Source: a virus
DNA length: 42,322 bases
Virus record (IMG/VR): IMGVR_UViG_3300025266_000011
Location: 1 to 42,322 of that record
Reading direction: 5' to 3' (one strand)
A model generated the notes under the pieces. It made no database searches. It was not told the DNA's origin and saw only the letters and a program-made list of their open reading frames with translations. The translations under genes were made by a program, and so were the position numbers. Positions 22,601 to 42,322 of the stretch are shown here, one piece after another (the stretch's first letter is position 1; every line of letters starts with the position of its first letter).

Positions 22601-24615
22601 CTGGTCTAGTACGTGAAGCAGTTAGCGGTAAGTACGAAGTACAGTTTGAAGAGTTGCGTAGACTAGGTGACGAGTTCACTAACGTAGCTACATCTAAGTT
22701 CGGTAACAGCTCTATTACTGAGTATGCAGACGAAGCAGTTAAGAACCCGTTTGCAGATTATATTAAGACAGCTCTTAATGTACCTAAGCAGTCTGACTAT
22801 CCTTGGTGGGTACAACCTAACAAGTGGGTAGATGATGGGGTTAGTGCAGTCTATAATAAGATAGCAGCTATAGGAAGTAAAGTTAAGACTGATGCTCAGA
22901 TAGCAGAGATAACAGCTATACAGGAAAGAGCAGGCTTTAAGGTAGCTCCTAACTACGATGCAGAAATGGATTTGTTTGCTAACGCTACTAGTGACAAGGG
23001 TGTACTTAGTAAGTTTATAGGTAAGGCTAATGGTATACTAGCTACTATAGTACTGAGACTGGATACACTTAACGCAGTTAACAATGCTATATCTGCTAAC
23101 GTGCTATTAGGTGCAGAAACTAAAGCAGTAATGCGAGCTATGCAGCGCGGTGACGAAGGTGCAGTAGGTGCTCTAGCTAAGGTCATGAAGATAGGAGTTC
23201 CTGGTACTGATGCTTCTATGACCTCTGCTGGTAAGATGATATCTGAATCCATACGCAGGTTCCATGTGTTCGGTAAAGACTCTCCAGAGAAAGCGTTCTA
23301 TCGTGAGAATGGATTCCTTACTCCTATACATGACCAGTACAAGACTGCGTTAGATACTATTACTTATGACGGTAGAGAAGCTATAGGTGCTTATGGTAGT
23401 AAGCTTAAGAAGATGGAAGAAGGTTTAGCTGAGCTTGCTAACAAAGGTGAACAGTGGACAGGTAACAGACTAGCTGAAGAGTTTAACAGATTCGTAGCAG
23501 CTGATGTAATGAAGCAGATGACTGACGTAGCTGTGGGTAGAAACCTAATGACAGCTAAGGAGCAGCTTGCTTATATTAATACTTTTGTTAACAGAACGCA
23601 GGGTAACTACTTAGCTGCTCAACGTCCTATGTTATTCCAAGGCCCTCTAGGTCAGGCTATAGGACTGTTCCAGACTTATCAGTTTAACTTACTACAGCAG
23701 ACTCTACGTTATGTAGGTGAAGGTCACGCTAAAGATAGCTTAACTCTCTTAGGTCTGCAAGGCGGTATTCACGGTATGAACGGCCTACCTGCTTTCGATG
23801 CTATTAACACCAGCCTCATAGGTAATGCTTCTGGTAACACAGACCATAAAGACTTGTTCGATGCTACATACGGAGCAGCTGGTAAGCAAGGAGGTGACTG
23901 GCTTATGTACGGGTTAGCTAGTAACATGTTCCTAATACCTGAACTTAAAGTTAACTTGTATACTCGTGGTGACATTAACCCTAGGCACATAACTATAATT
24001 CCTACTAACCCTAGTACTGTACCGTTTGTACAAGCTAGCGGTAAGTTCTTTGCTAATCTATTCGAGACAGCTAAGAAAGTAAAGGCGGGAGGTGATGTGT
24101 CTACTACACTACTACAGGGGTTAGAGCATAATAGTTTAAGTAGACCGTTAGCTGGCTTAGCTCAAGTACTGCAAGGATTTAATAACCCAGAAGCTGCTAG
24201 TTATAGCACTAGTAAGAAAGGTAATGTTATTGCAGCTAATGACTTGCTATCTCTATCAAACTTAACTCGTATGGTAGGTGGTAAACCTTTAGACGAGGCT
24301 ATAGCATTAGACGCTATGTATCGCTTTAAGGCTTATGGTTTAAGAGATGCTAAGAAGAGACAGGTGTTAGGGGAGGCTGTTAAGACTACTATGCTAGCAG
24401 GGCAGAACCCAACAGCTGAGCAGATAGAAAACTTTAGTAAAGGGTATGTAGAAACTGGCGGGAGACAAGAGGAGTTTAATCAGTGGTTCGGTCAGCTATA
24501 TAAGACTGCTAACCTGAGTCAGGTAAGTGCACTGCAAGATAACTTAGATAGTCCATTCAATCAAAGTATGCAAAGACTTATGGGAGGTAAAGAGATAAGA
24601 GACTTTACTAAATAG
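19603..24615 (+). CDS. Giant internal virion / ejection protein (1670 residues)
   Basis: The largest gene, last in the rightward operon, probably encodes the main ejected core protein that helps move DNA across the envelope. Glycine-rich hydrophobic stretches near residues 120-140 and 233-255 (FGAVLFGAVGGVID) could contact membrane. Most of the rest is helical with Lys/Glu-rich segments. The C-terminal third (for example GPLGQAIGLFQTYQFNLLQQ) is more hydrophobic. I looked for lytic transglycosylase (GLMQ-type), peptidase and RNA polymerase motifs and saw none. One-base overlap with the preceding gene. The size resembles ejection proteins of several marine podoviruses. Confidence 0.7.
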   Translation: MGSAYQEALDKVEAGQDLSSASAPSYITDADTMSMANGNQTFLQSAFDTVESIPKFIGASIISGASQLYNIAPDVGNLVSDVTGLGDPDERFVRLDTAEVISGLNSNLGQFYEENREGTDLVGFVLSSIVPGMAGVRILNAGQKSLQATIATGRFGEGTSRALGLLAPNKGEFLNKAIKELATNGSAPSLLKGNALKSIMSGVGQNGYEALAFETAVAATLFNSPVLENQDFGDFVTNVAFGAVLFGAVGGVIDATKINSALKGAANNASAEARPWTYIPEAAPKSNAYEVISMDLEALANMPSVLKGSTPELLARSRVLQQTADSTRATLNNRVRANFNVISGGDQEAATAMFNTISRLNPHDQQFALIGLSESGRLTTLAKQTKELDKIANKVATGKATDADIAALNATAESTGYLKVWGEGAGTVLTDAPVVTSVVDILKKGQQIGINAKGVFVGKAGKAGQKVKPATGGKSWKFDTSYNLGAKAGAKGGAWDILKADTLTANARYIWAQSLPAFKPTAKAPVTVNVTDIPLLEKVLVDVAPENLQFVKFTGLKKGEEIGVDFLSYVGNKKVEVANKLLASKRKIPLTQEEIAAQVNVKNALLSGEQSAEAVSEFARRDVLAMQSHAEDYTEQLVNSGLRSKNEGTMPIWNTPQHMKLTYNDAPFAGLDNHVAEGMVIIKEQQKLYQQGADTAFSSIIGKDAAKFEAISSQKVYVGANPSGAGAGLLTAASDNYGTLAASVGNIGRTTSSVINKFKDRSREVFSPLLIKLAQNQEAAVEYSTISTRIRNIEGEYGLNEAGDAMESLALIKWRKASKLATEAELPPPKRPRVNEKDMPRIDIKTPEARALIKAHIEVNGMRTIDLGKIRSAQGVQFGRDPAAFYPIPVNPTNYKHFAIVVDQSVTSGQHSKSLYANTAEELDAQIRRMKENPHFKVLTKKEAEDYYKARGQFDYEKTINSNYLDSAARRKGVSAPALPATDTKKITEDFLNWHLTRETGLVREAVSGKYEVQFEELRRLGDEFTNVATSKFGNSSITEYADEAVKNPFADYIKTALNVPKQSDYPWWVQPNKWVDDGVSAVYNKIAAIGSKVKTDAQIAEITAIQERAGFKVAPNYDAEMDLFANATSDKGVLSKFIGKANGILATIVLRLDTLNAVNNAISANVLLGAETKAVMRAMQRGDEGAVGALAKVMKIGVPGTDASMTSAGKMISESIRRFHVFGKDSPEKAFYRENGFLTPIHDQYKTALDTITYDGREAIGAYGSKLKKMEEGLAELANKGEQWTGNRLAEEFNRFVAADVMKQMTDVAVGRNLMTAKEQLAYINTFVNRTQGNYLAAQRPMLFQGPLGQAIGLFQTYQFNLLQQTLRYVGEGHAKDSLTLLGLQGGIHGMNGLPAFDAINTSLIGNASGNTDHKDLFDATYGAAGKQGGDWLMYGLASNMFLIPELKVNLYTRGDINPRHITIIPTNPSTVPFVQASGKFFANLFETAKKVKAGGDVSTTLLQGLEHNSLSRPLAGLAQVLQGFNNPEAASYSTSKKGNVIAANDLLSLSNLTRMVGGKPLDEAIALDAMYRFKAYGLRDAKKRQVLGEAVKTTMLAGQNPTAEQIENFSKGYVETGGRQEEFNQWFGQLYKTANLSQVSALQDNLDSPFNQSMQRLMGGKEIRDFTK

Positions 24616-24651
24616 TAGGGAGTCTCTTTTAGTTTTAACGTGTGTGTCCTT

Positions 24652-24675
24652 TAGGGAACGGAAGCCCTATTTTTT
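24652..24675 (+). terminator. Terminator ending the rightward operon
   Basis: TAGGG at 24652-24656 pairs with CCCTA at 24665-24669, followed by six T. The stem is short, but the place, just after the last rightward gene and facing the leftward operon, is right. The stem includes the stop codon of the MazG-like gene on the other strand. Confidence 0.55.
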
Positions 24676-25116
24676 ATCCGCTCTATCCTGCGCTTGCTTA
24701 TCAGTATAAACACCTAACTTATATCTAGCTTTATCAGAAAGGAGTAACTTCTTTCTATTAGCAAAGAGCGTATCTTCTCTATCAATACCACACTCCTGTC
24801 TTAACCCTTCCATGTAAAACTCTAAGTCACCTAACTCCTCGATAACATTATTAATATCTAAAGGCTTGTTATAGAAAACAGATTTCTTAACTGCATCTAA
24901 CAACTCACCTGACTCACCGCTAATACCTACTGCCATGTGTAATAAGTTACACTGACTAGCAGATAAGCCATTTAGTATATCTTCGCCAGACTTAACTAGC
25001 GCTGTTACCATTACCTGATGTAGAGTTTTTACTGTATCGCCTGTATGGATTTGTGTAGCTGAAGGTTTAGATTTTACTTCAGGCCAGTCTCTAGGGTCAC
25101 GATTATGTCCACTCAT
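24667..25116 (-). CDS. MazG-like nucleotide pyrophosphohydrolase
   Basis: The 149-residue product has the all-alpha NTP pyrophosphatase metal motifs: ESGELLDAVKK (E68 and E71) and EELGDL (E94 and D97). Such enzymes hydrolyse nucleoside triphosphates to monophosphate and pyrophosphate. Phage versions may adjust nucleotide pools or alarmone levels. I choose ATG 25116 because it overlaps the preceding short gene as ATGA; an in-frame TTG at 25131 is less likely. It is the last gene of the leftward operon. Confidence 0.75.
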   Translation of the reverse strand: MSGHNRDPRDWPEVKSKPSATQIHTGDTVKTLHQVMVTALVKSGEDILNGLSASQCNLLHMAVGISGESGELLDAVKKSVFYNKPLDINNVIEELGDLEFYMEGLRQECGIDREDTLFANRKKLLLSDKARYKLGVYTDKQAQDRADKK

Positions 25117-25250
25117 TTGTATTGACTCCAATAGTCTTTGTTGTGTTCTAGGTTATAATAAACAAGAGCAGCTAGAACATTTAGTCTGCTGTGCTTAGCG
25201 TTTGCTATTAACTCAGTTAAGAGTGTAGGCTTCGGTTTAGTTTCTTTCAT
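25113..25250 (-). CDS. Unknown 45-residue protein
   Basis: A short frame from ATG 25250 to TGA 25113-25115 fills the gap between the lipoprotein and MazG-like genes. Both ends overlap neighbours as ATGA, a strong sign of coupled translation. GGAAG lies about ten bases before the start. The peptide has a basic N-terminus (MKETKPKP), a helical middle (LLTELIANAKHSRLNVLAAL) and a Tyr/Asn-rich end. Not recognised. Confidence 0.65.
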   Translation of the reverse strand: MKETKPKPTLLTELIANAKHSRLNVLAALVYYNLEHNKDYWSQYK

Positions 25251-25546
25251 AACTTAAACTTCCAGTCTATGAATACTTCTGTTTTAGAGTATTCCTTTTT
25301 GTCATTAAAGGGTTGACCTGTTAACCATTGCGAGTGATGCTCTACACCGTAGACTAACTTCTCTTCATACTCCCAGTACATCTTTAGTCTAGCAGTAACA
25401 GGGTGGTTAATACGCTCCTTGTTATAAGTAAGTTCTAGCTCCTGTACTTTATAACCTACACCTACTGAGTAAGTAGGCGCAGCGCAGGAAGTTAGTAGAC
25501 AGGCTGGTATAACTGATGCTGCGAATAACAATACTATCCTTTTCAT
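25247..25546 (-). CDS. Outer-membrane-type lipoprotein
   Basis: The ATG at 25546 gives 99 residues with a classical lipoprotein signal: MKRIVLLF, a hydrophobic core and the lipobox LTSC (residues 18-21), so Cys21 would be lipidated. The residue after it is Ala, compatible with outer-membrane sorting. AGGTG precedes the ATG at about eight bases; a GTG nine bases earlier is less likely. The mature part is beta-rich, with KLVYGVEHHSQWLTGQPF and a KTEVFIDWKFKL end that resembles outer-membrane strand endings. Candidate roles are superinfection exclusion or modification of the envelope. An outer spanin is less likely because it lies far from the lysis genes. Function not proven. Confidence 0.65.
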   Translation of the reverse strand: MKRIVLLFAASVIPACLLTSCAAPTYSVGVGYKVQELELTYNKERINHPVTARLKMYWEYEEKLVYGVEHHSQWLTGQPFNDKKEYSKTEVFIDWKFKL

Positions 25547-30215: not shown

Positions 30216-30641
30216 CTAGATGATAGTAATATCTTTTACTTCAAGATAGAACTTCTCTTTATCTTTCTTGTCTGCACGTAAGCTGGTAGTGATAACACAC
30301 TCAACATCTTTAACCTGCTCAATAACATCGCGGATAGTTTCTAACTGCAATGCTTCTTGGAAAGGCTTAGCACACTTCTTAAGATTACCTACTCCGTACT
30401 CATTACCTAACATAAACATAGTGTTAGACACATCACCACCATTAGGCTTAGCATCCTGCGGGTCACTAAGTTCTAACGTCTCTACCATAGTAAAGCTAAG
30501 CTCAACTGCTGCCTTCGCGTTAATCTCTTTCATTTCGAAAGAGGCTTTAACGCTGTGTGTACCGCGAGGGAAAACAGCAAAAGCTGGTAAGTCGGCTAAG
30601 TCATCTAATTTTGTGTCTAACAAGCTATCTAAATCTGACAT
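30216..30641 (-). CDS. Candidate single-stranded DNA-binding protein
   Basis: The 141-residue product is beta-rich in the middle (GTHSVKASFEMKEINAKAAV) with acidic N-terminal residues (MSDLDSLLDTKLDDLADL) and an ordered C-terminus (EKFYLEVKDITII). It lies next to a Sak4-like recombinase gene, where phages often keep their SSB, and has its own AT-rich upstream region and a strong terminator, as expected for an abundant protein. AGGAA precedes the ATG. It has no acidic tail of the E. coli SSB type. Assignment is by context and fold impression. Confidence 0.45.
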   Translation of the reverse strand: MSDLDSLLDTKLDDLADLPAFAVFPRGTHSVKASFEMKEINAKAAVELSFTMVETLELSDPQDAKPNGGDVSNTMFMLGNEYGVGNLKKCAKPFQEALQLETIRDVIEQVKDVECVITTSLRADKKDKEKFYLEVKDITII

Positions 30642-35031: not shown

Positions 35032-35778
35032 TTATAAGTTAGCGAGTAAGTCTTCGGCAGATACGTTAAGGAAAGTATCAGCTTTCTGTAACAAGAACTC
35101 TACGCACTCTTCGAAGTCTTCGATGTTAGGTGAGTTCTCAGCGTAGATAGCTAACTGCTCTACCATTAAGTTAAGAACGGCTTCGTTAGTCTTAACGCCC
35201 GATAACTTAGACACTAGAATCTTAGCTGCGTTAGCAACCTGTTCGACTTTCTTACCAGTAATAGCAGGCATACATTCAACGTAGTCCTGACCAAACGCTT
35301 CCCAAGTTTCTTTAGGAATACCACCACCACGTCGCTGCGCTTTAGGTATCTTAGAGATAACGTCCCAGCTTACTTTATCTACAGGAAAGGTAGCAGCGTT
35401 AATGCTGGTATCTTCTTGTAATAAGTCACGCGCTTGTGTGTTAACTACGGATTCCATTGCATCTAGCAATAACTCTAAACCTTTACCGCCAGCTTCTAAG
35501 ATAGCTACGATACCTTGAACAGAAGGGTAAGGCATAGCTAGTACTACTGGCTGACGCACTGTTTCGATACCAGTGTCTTTATCTTTAGATTTTTTAAAGT
35601 TAAACTGCGTAGCTTTGGTAGTTACATCAAAGTCGTAGTTAATTTTAATAGTATCTAATAACGCTACCATTTCTTCGTTACTAGGGTTAACTGCTTTGAT
35701 AACTACAGGGCCGGTAGCTACGTCAGCAGTATGGCTTGCTTCGTTATCTTGGTGGGTTGTTGCTTCTGATTCTGGCAT
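35032..35778 (-). CDS. Unknown 248-residue protein with its own strong promoter
   Basis: The product has an acidic, low-complexity N-terminus (about 1-25), a beta/alpha body (KINYDFDVTTKATQFNFKKS, PVVLAMPYPSVQGIVAILEA), a basic Gly-rich turn (PKAQRRGGGIPKETWEAFGQ) and a helical, acidic C-terminus. Such acidic helical tails occur in DNA-metabolism partners. A near-consensus promoter and a leader hairpin lie just upstream, suggesting high or separately timed expression. Its stop lies within the inverted repeat GCTAAC/GTTAGC (35020-35043). No family recognised. Confidence 0.7.
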   Translation of the reverse strand: MPESEATTHQDNEASHTADVATGPVVIKAVNPSNEEMVALLDTIKINYDFDVTTKATQFNFKKSKDKDTGIETVRQPVVLAMPYPSVQGIVAILEAGGKGLELLLDAMESVVNTQARDLLQEDTSINAATFPVDKVSWDVISKIPKAQRRGGGIPKETWEAFGQDYVECMPAITGKKVEQVANAAKILVSKLSGVKTNEAVLNLMVEQLAIYAENSPNIEDFEECVEFLLQKADTFLNVSAEDLLANL

Positions 35779-39311: not shown

Positions 39312-39645
39312 TAGATTTAGTCTCCCGCTTTATTGTCCAGTTGAAAGAATCAGCTAAGAAAGCGCACTTAATAGTAGGGTGGTAACCTAGTATTATAGTT
39401 AATATGTTACCGCTATCTAGTACTACTTTAGCTGTCATTATACTACAATAAATCTGCTCAGGTACACTTACTATAGTGTACAGCTTTTGTGGTGTTACAG
39501 CTGTAATCTTATGGCCAGTGTCACGATTATTGTTAAAATCAGCAAATGCTGCTTTGCTCATGTTTAGATAGACTTGTCTACCTACTAAGATTTGCATATT
39601 TACTGGTAGTCTATTAGCTTTAGCTACAGTGTTAGTAGTATCCAT
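39304..39645 (-). CDS. Unknown 113-residue protein
   Basis: A beta-rich small protein (MQILVGRQVYLNMSKAAFAD, KLYTIVSVPEQIYCSIMTAK, GNILTIILGYH) with barrel-like strand spacing and a basic tail (WTIKRETKSNG). Start overlaps the previous stop by one base and stop overlaps the next gene by eight bases. An OB-like or SH3-like fold is possible. Not recognised. Confidence 0.6.
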   Translation of the reverse strand: MDTTNTVAKANRLPVNMQILVGRQVYLNMSKAAFADFNNNRDTGHKITAVTPQKLYTIVSVPEQIYCSIMTAKVVLDSGNILTIILGYHPTIKCAFLADSFNWTIKRETKSNG

Positions 39646-40136
39646 TAGTCGTTCTCCAAGTTTAGCTCATGCGCAGCTTCTTGCTCGCTAGTCATTAAGT
39701 CGTTAAGGTACATATGCTCAGTAGCTGCTGCTAACTCTTCTAAGTTACATAGCGCAGGGTCGTCAGTGTATTTAATATAACACTGTTCCCAATAGTCTTC
39801 TTTAGAAGTAGCAGTATAGTCGGCAGTAGCAGGTACGCTAGGTGTAGGTAATGAATACAAGCTAGGCTTACCTGTACCTAGCTCCATTAGTGTTTGCTGC
39901 TGCTTAGCTGCTGCTATAGTCTGCTCGTCTCTACTACTATAAGCTGGCTTAACACCGGCATTATCTATCTTAGCTTTAAAGACAGATAGTGTAGAGATAA
40001 CAGATAGACTAGCATCAGATAGTGGTTGTTCTCGCTTACATACTGCTAGTATATGCAGTATCTGTACGCTAGTTAGTACTGGACGGTATTTAACTAATTT
40101 ATTAGCTGGTGTATTAGCTGGTGTATTCATTAGCAT
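39645..40136 (-). CDS. Unknown 163-residue protein
   Basis: The product starts MLMNTPANTPANKLVKYRPV; ATG 40136 overlaps the preceding stop and ATG 40130 is also possible. A helical N-terminal part (VQILHILAVCKREQPLSDAS) is followed by a Gln/Pro-rich linker and an acidic C-terminal helix (LEELAAATEHMYLNDLMTSE). No family recognised. Confidence 0.6.
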   Translation of the reverse strand: MLMNTPANTPANKLVKYRPVLTSVQILHILAVCKREQPLSDASLSVISTLSVFKAKIDNAGVKPAYSSRDEQTIAAAKQQQTLMELGTGKPSLYSLPTPSVPATADYTATSKEDYWEQCYIKYTDDPALCNLEELAAATEHMYLNDLMTSEQEAAHELNLEND

Positions 40137-40642: not shown

Positions 40643-41044
40643 TTAGTTTCTACTCCCTACAGCTTGTATAGCATTAAGATAAGCTAATACCTCTTCATCA
40701 CTAAGGTATCTATCTTGCGTCACACCTGCGTTAGATAGGTCGGTTAGATAAGATAGAGATAGTGGAGTAGTATATAGTAATGTACTTACTAGCACTACTC
40801 TATACATATCAATAGTCTTAATCCTAGCTGTAGGAAACGGCATATTTGGTATACTATACGTAACTGCGCTAGTATACTTATACATAGCTACCTGCATATC
40901 TTCCTTACCTAAGAAGATTATACTAGCACTTGCTCCCTCTTCTAGTAAGCTATAACCATTCATAGTTATCTGAGTTATACTAGTTAAAGGAGAGGTTACA
41001 TAGGTAACTAAACCTAAGCTTGTTTCATTAGTTGATAGTTTCAT
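40643..41044 (-). CDS. Unknown first gene of the early operon
   Basis: The 133-residue product is the first gene behind the TTGACA promoter with its TGCCA repeats; the leader is about 75 bases. It is beta-rich with many Thr, Ser and Tyr residues (SLGLVTYVTSPLTSITQITM, VAMYKYTSAVTYSIPN), then helical near the end (LSDEEVLAYLNAIQAV). Being first expressed, it could act on host functions or regulate the array, but nothing in it shows DNA binding. Not recognised. Confidence 0.65.
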   Translation of the reverse strand: MKLSTNETSLGLVTYVTSPLTSITQITMNGYSLLEEGASASIIFLGKEDMQVAMYKYTSAVTYSIPNMPFPTARIKTIDMYRVVLVSTLLYTTPLSLSYLTDLSNAGVTQDRYLSDEEVLAYLNAIQAVGSRN

Positions 41045-41081
41045 TAGCTGATTCTCTTAGTTAGAACTAAATTGGTAATTA

Positions 41082-41143
41082 TGGCACGTTTTGGCATTTT
41101 GTGCCATTTCGTGCCATATTGTGCCATAATGCCACAATGCCAG
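41082..41143. repeat. Seven TGCCA/TGGCA repeats, 10- and 8-bp phased (array 1)
   Basis: TGGCA at 41082 and 41092 and TGCCA at 41102, 41112, 41122, 41130 and 41138 follow each other at steps of 10, 10, 10, 10, 8 and 8 bases. The sites fall on one face of the helix and change orientation once between 41092 and 41102. They cover the spacer, -10 and leader of the early promoter. Confidence 0.9.
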
Positions 41144-41153
41144 AACATGTCAA
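41126..41153 (-). promoter_or_regulatory. Early leftward sigma70 promoter inside repeat array 1
   Basis: On the minus strand TTGACA (41153-41148), a perfect -35, is followed after 16 bases by CATTAT (41131-41126), four of six matches to -10. It points at the first early gene. TGCCA sites sit within its spacer, on the -10 and downstream, the arrangement of operators for a repressor or activator. Confidence 0.7.
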
Positions 41154-41220
41154 GGGGGGTCTTAGTGTAACTATCCCCCTTTTGTGTATCTGTCTACGGT
41201 ATATACCTAGTTACTGTATA

Positions 41221-41281
41221 TACCTAACTACTAGTATACACTCTATATAGGGTAGAGAGAGTGTATAGCACTAGTTAGGTA
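41221..41281. repeat. 61-bp imperfect palindrome
   Basis: TATACACTCT (41235-41244) pairs with AGAGTGTATA (41258-41267). Outside it ACTAG (41230-41234) pairs with CTAGT (41271-41275), and TACCTA (41221-41226) pairs with TAGGTA (41276-41281). That makes 21 base pairs with two 3-base bulges and a 13-base loop. It could extrude as a cruciform. Confidence 0.75.
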
Positions 41282-41544
41282 GAGTATGTGTTACATGATT
41301 GATGTATAGTTATAACCCCACTTATTTAAATAAATACATTTAATACTTATATTCTTATATACTACTACTATATATACACTAGCTAGCTAGTCACTGCTAT
41401 ATATAGTTACTGCTAGCTAGTACTAGATATATACTGCTACCTAACTACTAGCCCTAGATAGATGGTAGGTAGATAGATAGTAGGTAGTTGTTAGGTATAT
41501 AGATAGACCAATATAGACCGATATACATACCCCCTTTTTTCAAA

Positions 41545-41592
41545 TGGCATTGTGGCAATGTGTCACGATGTGGTCATTGTGCCAAAATGCCA
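41545..41592. repeat. Inverted, degenerate TGCCA array (array 2)
   Basis: TGGCA at 41545 and 41553, a TGTCA variant at 41561, TGGTCA at 41571 and TGCCA at 41580 and 41588 form a second array, with one more TGGCA at 41623. The 13-mer TGGCATTGTGGCA at 41545-41557 is the exact reverse complement of 41130-41142 in array 1. CCCCCTT-type sequence precedes it as in array 1, but TTGACA is missing. Confidence 0.85.
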
Positions 41593-41672
41593 TTTTTAGT
41601 TATACCCTATAACTATCAAAAGTGGCATAAGAGAGAAGGTAACTAATATTAGATTATTAAAAGACAGACAGC

Positions 41673-41696
41673 AAAAAACCAGCTATTAAACTGGTT
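41673..41696 (-). terminator. Terminator after the join gene
   Basis: On the minus strand AACCAG (41696-41691) pairs with CTGGTT (41682-41677) and is followed by four more T (41676-41673). It lies about 50 bases after the stop of the gene ending at 41744. The stem is short. Confidence 0.5.
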
Positions 41697-41700
41697 AATG

Positions 41701-41721
41701 ATTAAGTATTAAGTATTAAGT
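41701..41721. repeat. Three tandem ATTAAGT units
   Basis: ATTAAGT is repeated exactly three times between the terminator and the stop of the join gene. Function unknown. Confidence 0.85.
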
Positions 41722-41743
41722 ATTACTAGGCGCTAGCAGTTAC

Positions 41744-42322
41744 TTATAATGCAAATAATGCATCTTTCGAAGCGGCTTCTATCTTATCCATACGCACCAT
41801 AAATCTACTAGCTAAACTATCATCTAATAAACCGCATAGATTAATAGCTTTTCGCATTGCTTCCATGTCTTCAGTTTTAATACTAGCCTTCGGACTGGCG
41901 AATAACTCGAACTTACTTTTATAAGCGTTAACTACACGTTGAATATTAACTAGTTGATTTTCGTTAGCTTCTAGTAAGCTTACACCTAGTTTATTGGCCA
42001 CTATCTCAGATAAGGGCGCTTCAAAGCTTACGTTAAACCATGCTGCTATTTTCTCTTTCGTAAGTCTTCCGCCTTCGGTAGTCTCTTCAAGATAAGCGAT
42101 AAGAGAGTCTATACTTAATCCAGTGGTGAATATATTCAACTGGCCTTTACCATGTGCCGCTTTAATCTGCTTATCTTCGACGGATTCTAACCAATTCGCA
42201 ACATGCTCAGATAAGTCGTTAGCTTTGTCTGCTATCTTACTGCTAGATAAATGTGCTGTAGGTATACGACAATAGCTAGACTCTAATCCAGTGGTATTAT
42301 CTGCGCGATATAAGCATTTAAC
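41744..42322 (-). CDS. Unknown phage protein, C-terminal part (gene crosses the map join)
   Basis: The frame is open to the window edge and continues at base 250 of the left end; the join with 1-475 makes one 267-residue protein. An internal ATG at 42139 is not the start, because the frame upstream matches the left-end copy residue for residue. The part here contains LSEHVANWLESVEDKQIKAA, then FTTGLSIDSLIAYLEETTEG, and a helical C-terminus (KTEDMEAMRKAINLCGLLDD). Not recognised; no catalytic motif or membrane span seen. Confidence 0.8.
   Translation of the reverse strand, partial: VKCLYRADNTTGLESSYCRIPTAHLSSSKIADKANDLSEHVANWLESVEDKQIKAAHGKGQLNIFTTGLSIDSLIAYLEETTEGGRLTKEKIAAWFNVSFEAPLSEIVANKLGVSLLEANENQLVNIQRVVNAYKSKFELFASPKASIKTEDMEAMRKAINLCGLLDDSLASRFMVRMDKIEAASKDALFAL
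42073..42322. repeat. Right copy of 250-bp end overlap
   Basis: Matches 1-250 except for nine third-position changes, so the unit genome is 42072 bases. The copies are not identical, which argues against simple duplication of one read set. Confidence 0.9.

Follow-up and report, generated by a model that had tools for sequence, protein, structure and literature searches.

What could be the role of two opposed arrays of short boxes that face each other across non-coding DNA in the genome of an uncultured phage? The sequence studied is an IMG/VR virus record of 42,322 bases, which was analyzed over its whole length and is referred to as the window. The initial annotation proposed that this locus was a replication origin with initiator-binding arrays or an early genetic switch. 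Both remain the leading readings; GC skew and AT-richness gave no support.

Layout of the array locus

Positions 1–250 of the window are repeated, with some mismatches, at 42073–42322. These overlapping contig ends indicate a circular or terminally redundant genome of ~42,072 bp. The differences between the two end copies indicate that the record contains two strain versions of one stretch. Rightward late genes for terminase, portal, capsid, and internal proteins occupy 1425–24615, and leftward early genes run from 41044 to 24667, encoding DUF3987 primase-like, polymerase A, RecA-like ATPase, PD-(D/E)XK-like, Dda/RecD-like helicase, and SprT-like proteins; some of these early and late gene names were inferred from sequence character. 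No phage RNA polymerase was detected among the proteins scanned, hence early transcription is probably carried out by the host polymerase. The array locus occupies the gap 41045–41743, with the leftward early operon on one side and the conserved leftward gene reg on the other, and the small terminase (TerS) gene is located ~1.9 kb from the arrays (features in Table 1). A second non-coding stretch of ~0.9 kb (481–1424) separates the divergent reg and late operon and is probably the late promoter region. Within the early operon, e141 (30216–30641) gave a weak DUF669 match (E 0.087), which fits a protein that binds single-stranded DNA and is encoded next to the RecA-like ATPase.

Table 1 Features of the array locus and of the genes discussed, in window coordinates.
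Feature	Position	Strand	Remarks
e248, conserved early protein	35032–35778	-	Probable paralogue of reg; candidate binder
e163, early protein	39645–40136	-	Divergence tracks box divergence best; weak candidate binder
First gene of leftward early operon	40643–41044	-	133 aa
Array 1, seven TGGCA/TGCCA boxes	41082–41142		Spacing 10-10-10-10-8-8
Sigma-70-type early promoter overlapping array 1	41126–41153	-	-35 TTGACA 41153–41148; 16 bp; -10 CATTAT 41131–41126; TG before -10
Non-coding island, gene-free	41143–41544
Imperfect palindrome	41221–41281 (41221–41249 / 41253–41281)		29-nt arms, 83%
Recurrent island centre, AT-rich tract and ATACATCAA-like box	41295–41345	-	18-island alignment, loose, read by eye
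Array 2, five TGNCA boxes, opposed to array 1, without promoter	41545–41592
Intrinsic terminator of reg, adjoining array 2	41677–41696	-
Gene reg	475–1 (5' part) and 42072–41744 (3' part), joined across contig ends; record copy 41744–42322	-	267 aa

In array 1, TGGCA boxes start at 41082 and 41092, followed by TGCCA boxes at 41102, 41112, 41122, 41130, and 41138. The boxes of array 2 start at 41545 and 41553 (TGGCA), 41561 (TGTCA), and 41580 and 41588 (TGCCA), and an outlying TGGCA is present beyond it at 41623. Since the core TGNCA is itself palindromic, the inverted orientation of the arrays depends on the centre base and the flanks. The description of inverted arrays flanking ~400 bp of non-coding DNA was confirmed, with clustering and pairing far above shuffled sequence: seven TGCCA/TGGCA boxes fall within 61 bp against a maximum of 4 in 200 dinucleotide shuffles of the window, and the opposed period-8 array pair scored 28.4, the best of the genome, compared to 13–15 for shuffles. 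The exact 13-mer reported to be common to both arrays in opposite orientation, TGCCACAATGCCA, was likewise recovered, with one copy per array and no other copy in the window; at one mismatch, 4 copies were present versus 0.02 expected. A DNA similarity search of the locus against known phages yielded nothing useful, and an RNA family search at the locus gave sub-threshold microRNA noise only.

The -35 element of the early promoter lies just outside the array 1 boxes and the -10 element is built from box sequence. In many members of the group, the box itself constitutes the -10 (TGG-CATAAT, TGG-CACAAT, TGG-TATAAT). Sites overlapping a promoter, as looked for in an operator, were observed. Across the relatives, the mean promoter score was 8.96 for the early-side array and 7.44 for the other array, the early-side array scoring higher in 19 and lower in 4 of 25 (Wilcoxon p 0.0008). 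The view that a single element is present in two opposed copies, of which only one has a promoter, thus holds for the relatives as well.

Of the properties ascribed to the DNA between the arrays, the lack of genes and the large palindrome were upheld, while special AT-richness was not. The GC content of the island (33.8%) is below that of the genome (40.2%) and similar to that of the other non-coding DNA at 481–1424 (34.4%). An equally strong palindrome or fold was not seen in all relatives. Short simple repeats are abundant in the island.

Conservation and drift among relatives

Relatives were recruited via the RecA-like protein, the helicase, and the capsid, and were read as contigs. Each contig was subjected to a motif-free scan for three pitch-8 boxes facing three alike at a distance of 120–900 bp; the scan covered 28 relatives, with 29 contigs holding the locus. 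The top-scoring opposed pair of the whole genome was the array locus in 24 of the 29 contigs (16/18 and 8/11), with locus scores of 22–36, while most shuffles scored 12–18 and the highest 21. The array locus ranked second in G018, carried irregular TGCCA boxes in G009, and was represented by a single array adjoining the contig end in G035. At the equivalent place, G033 displayed 10-bp boxes (GTGCTATGTT) and G036 7-bp boxes (CAATTAA-like), both above shuffles. Further shorter loci also carry arrays, L144 among them. No complete locus without arrays was found among the relatives, and the conservation check suggested at the outset was therefore passed, as arrays are present in every relative with a complete locus. 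When the two genes closest to array 1 were used as queries, no further relatives were found.

The arrays of the relatives face each other at an inter-array distance of 250–442 bp. Their box core drifts through TGCCA, TGACA, CGACA, AGACTG, TGACTGTG, TACCA, and CACCA, and the full box series reads TGCCACAA, TGCCAGAA, TGACATTT, AACCAGAA, CGACAATC, CGCTAGAC/TGTCAGAC, TACCAAGG, and CACCAATT, leading to TGACTGTG. Judged from sequence, such drift at fixed geometry is as expected for a site with a co-evolving binder.

Some loci depart from the common arrangement. G015 has a third array (24521–25253; L095 4521–5253), and two small ORFs lie between its arrays. In L214 (G030) and L225 (G033) reg is inverted relative to the early operon, with the arrays unchanged. 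A 44-kb contig placed in a bacterial bin (L220–L222; NVSS01000025.1, labelled Coxiella sp. MAG NORP135) is a phage relative with arrays, and its presence in that bin likely reflects a binning error or an infecting phage.

Cultured phages carry an analogue of the locus. In PaMx41 (Jamesmcgillvirus, Fredfastierviridae), opposed CAAGGT/ACCTTG arrays with a pitch of 11 were found in the equivalent gap, with a raw score of 22.3 compared to 11.1–14.5 for shuffles; since several pitches were tried, this call also leans on the match falling in the expected gap. The pitch-11 arrays are kept in 8 aligned records (PaMx41, PaP2, 119X, PaMx32, PaMx33, FBPa48, 20Aug470, and TF17), whereas the Tiera gap contains opposed 27-bp copies that are not clearly arrays. 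The initial annotation knew of no named phage with this layout, a statement now superseded by the unannotated analogue, with different boxes, in PaMx41, PaP2, and 119X. Among close relatives, an insertion of ~23 bp in the early-side array alters the number of CCTTG-type boxes (L237, L238 (119X), L241 (20Aug470), L243, and L244 (PaMx33)). The records of PaMx41, PaP2, 119X, and PaMx33 share ends inside the island. This was rejected as a biological signal; the joined sequences are gapless and other records open elsewhere, which makes a common numbering convention the likelier cause. Phage Shea, with 98.6% ANI to PaP2, displayed turbid plaques, superinfection-resistant clones, and an unintegrated 41.5-kb contig (PMC13348215). 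Shea reportedly ties PaP2-like phages as a kind, and not yet the array locus, to episomal persistence.

Candidate binders and possible roles

We compared protein divergence with box divergence while core genes were held constant. The partial correlations (r) with the boxes were 0.49–0.51 for e163, 0.44–0.46 for DNA polymerase, 0.35 for e248, 0.30–0.35 for TerS, 0.09–0.15 for reg, and 0.01–0.09 for e348. As the value for the polymerase nearly equals that for e163, covariation does not name the binder. The case for e163 is further weakened because it was not detected in G029, G031, and G034, all of which have period-8 arrays. Three other candidates were rejected: reg as the sole binder, since it is absent from the array-bearing G004, G007, and G012 and its divergence does not track the boxes; e348, for its low covariation; and TerS, whose helix is constant while the boxes differ.

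No recognisable DNA-binding domain was found in the candidate binders, and no ribbon-helix-helix protein among the early proteins scanned against Pfam. Comparison of reg with e248 gave an hhalign E of 0.0034 at a probability of only 9.6%, and the AlphaFold models of e248 (pLDDT 82.7) and reg (79.2) have the same order of elements. Based on this alignment and the modelled element order, the two proteins are probably paralogues. Each has a short acidic-hydrophobic tail at its end, and their family has no known fold or name. A PDB structure search with both models returned no match passing E 0.001, and the e248 model had one strong viral structure match, which is nameless. Protein searches with e248 and e348 in annotated phages gave no match; the e348 alignment was too diverse to serve as a search query.

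The preservation of layout while the boxes drift points to a phage protein that would bind both arrays and control early genes, replication, or both. Control of early transcription is the best supported of these roles because the promoter lies inside the boxes, and bridging is the simplest reason for a pair, given that the opposed, promoter-less array 2 is kept at 250–440 bp. Our preferred reading, which we hold to be evenly poised between right and wrong, is that the arrays are paired operators through which a phage-encoded protein exerts repression on the early promoter, bridging one array to the other. One DNA-binding protein, co-evolving with the boxes, would assemble side by side on each array; occupation of array 1 would shut the early promoter, and two filled arrays might meet by looping of the 250–440 bp between them, resulting in cooperative shut-off. 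Possibly, the island additionally serves this protein as an origin of replication.

Alternatively, the locus may be a replication origin in the first place, with the arrays as the iterons of a phage initiator by which the island would be melted, and the promoter overlap serving autoregulation or transcriptional activation of the origin. We regard this as possible, though less likely than not. It is consistent with two iteron-like arrays flanking a gene-free island in which an AT tract and, at the centre, a ATACATCAA-like box recur, with the polymerase A, primase-like DUF3987, helicase, and RecA-like ATPase genes of the adjoining operon, and with a PaP2-like relative that reportedly persists as an unintegrated episome (PMC13348215), a state needing an origin. 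However, the AT-richness of the island does not exceed that of other non-coding DNA, no initiator family was recognised, and in most contigs of the clade to which the window belongs, the detrended GC skew reaches its minimum at ~0.71–0.80 of the genome from the arrays. Cumulative GC skew, which had been put forward as a check, showed no extreme at the locus that was common to the panel, in a test confounded by gene orientation.

It is improbable that the arrays form a pac site, at which the small terminase would bind both arrays and cut between them as in SPP1. In SPP1 pac, direct-repeat sets likewise cover promoters close to the gene for the small terminase (PMC4737164), the overlapping contig ends are compatible with terminal redundancy, and TerS shows some covariation with the boxes. 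Yet the helix-turn-helix of TerS (G-V-T-P-x-R-I-S-Q-L-L) hardly varies among phages whose boxes are TGCCA, TGACA, CACCA, or TGACTGTG, and a constant recognition helix with changing boxes makes a pac site less likely. The arrays also sit at the early and not the late operon. Moreover, the repeats of SPP1/SF6 contribute little to TerS binding and need not be read at all (PMC4737164), hence strict periodic drift is not expected of pac.

We consider it very unlikely that the locus supports a plasmid-like, episomal state as a centromere for partition (parC type) or as a site of iteron handcuffing. Arrays paired about a promoter resemble the geometry of ParR/parC, and a PaP2-like relative has been reported as an episomal pseudolysogen, but no ParM, ParA, or TubZ-like family was found among the early proteins scanned. 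Finally, the chance that the arrays have no function and merely reflect a recent duplication, or the drift of simple repeats in non-coding sequence, is negligible: the island is rich in short simple repeats, but opposed arrays with different boxes occupy one syntenic place in all complete relatives, far above shuffles, and this conservation already contradicts such an explanation.

Significance and comparison with known systems

The locus is probably the master control site of a podovirus group that is uncultured but widespread, with 349 capsid relatives in IMG/VR, and offers a naturally occurring series in which DNA boxes would co-evolve with their predicted binder. Owing to the analogue in cultured Pseudomonas relatives, its role in repressing early genes, in starting replication, and in the episomal pseudolysogeny that has been reported is directly testable. 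A broader proposal, which we consider rather unlikely as a whole, is that the locus represents a new kind of phage control element, in which opposed tandem-box arrays keep a fixed geometry while box and pitch (7, 8, 10, and 11 bp) turn over rapidly with the binder, and which would enable these podoviruses to persist as repressed episomes without an integrase or known repressor. Operator and iteron arrays are already known; as far as our searches went, an opposed pair whose box and pitch both drift has not been described.

Iteron-type origins (lambda ori/O protein, iteron plasmids) share with the locus tandem short boxes, non-coding DNA with AT tracts, and adjoining replication genes. They differ from it in that here two opposed arrays stand 250–440 bp apart with a 7–11-bp pitch varying among relatives, no known initiator, and no skew support. 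SPP1/SF6 pac has similar repeat sets around the cut region and promoters, fairly near terS, whereas here the TerS recognition helix does not track the boxes and the locus belongs to the early operon. As in MetJ/omega ribbon-helix-helix operators, the window has 8-bp tandem boxes with the palindromic core TGNCA. However, the constant 7–8-bp palindromic boxes of such operators are only roughly matched in the window, and some relatives have a pitch of 7, 10, or 11 bp and a non-palindromic core. The lambda OR/OL system with CI also has its operators in two clusters some distance apart, one of which overlies an early promoter; in contrast, the phage studied here has no recognised repressor or integrase, its arrays comprise 3–7 boxes at 7–11 bp, and the loop is much shorter. 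The Jamesmcgillvirus gap of PaMx41, PaP2, and 119X differs from the window in its 11-bp pitch and its box, and the families e163, e248, e348, and reg were not found there, but it likewise separates the early operon from a leftward gene and likewise contains opposed arrays.
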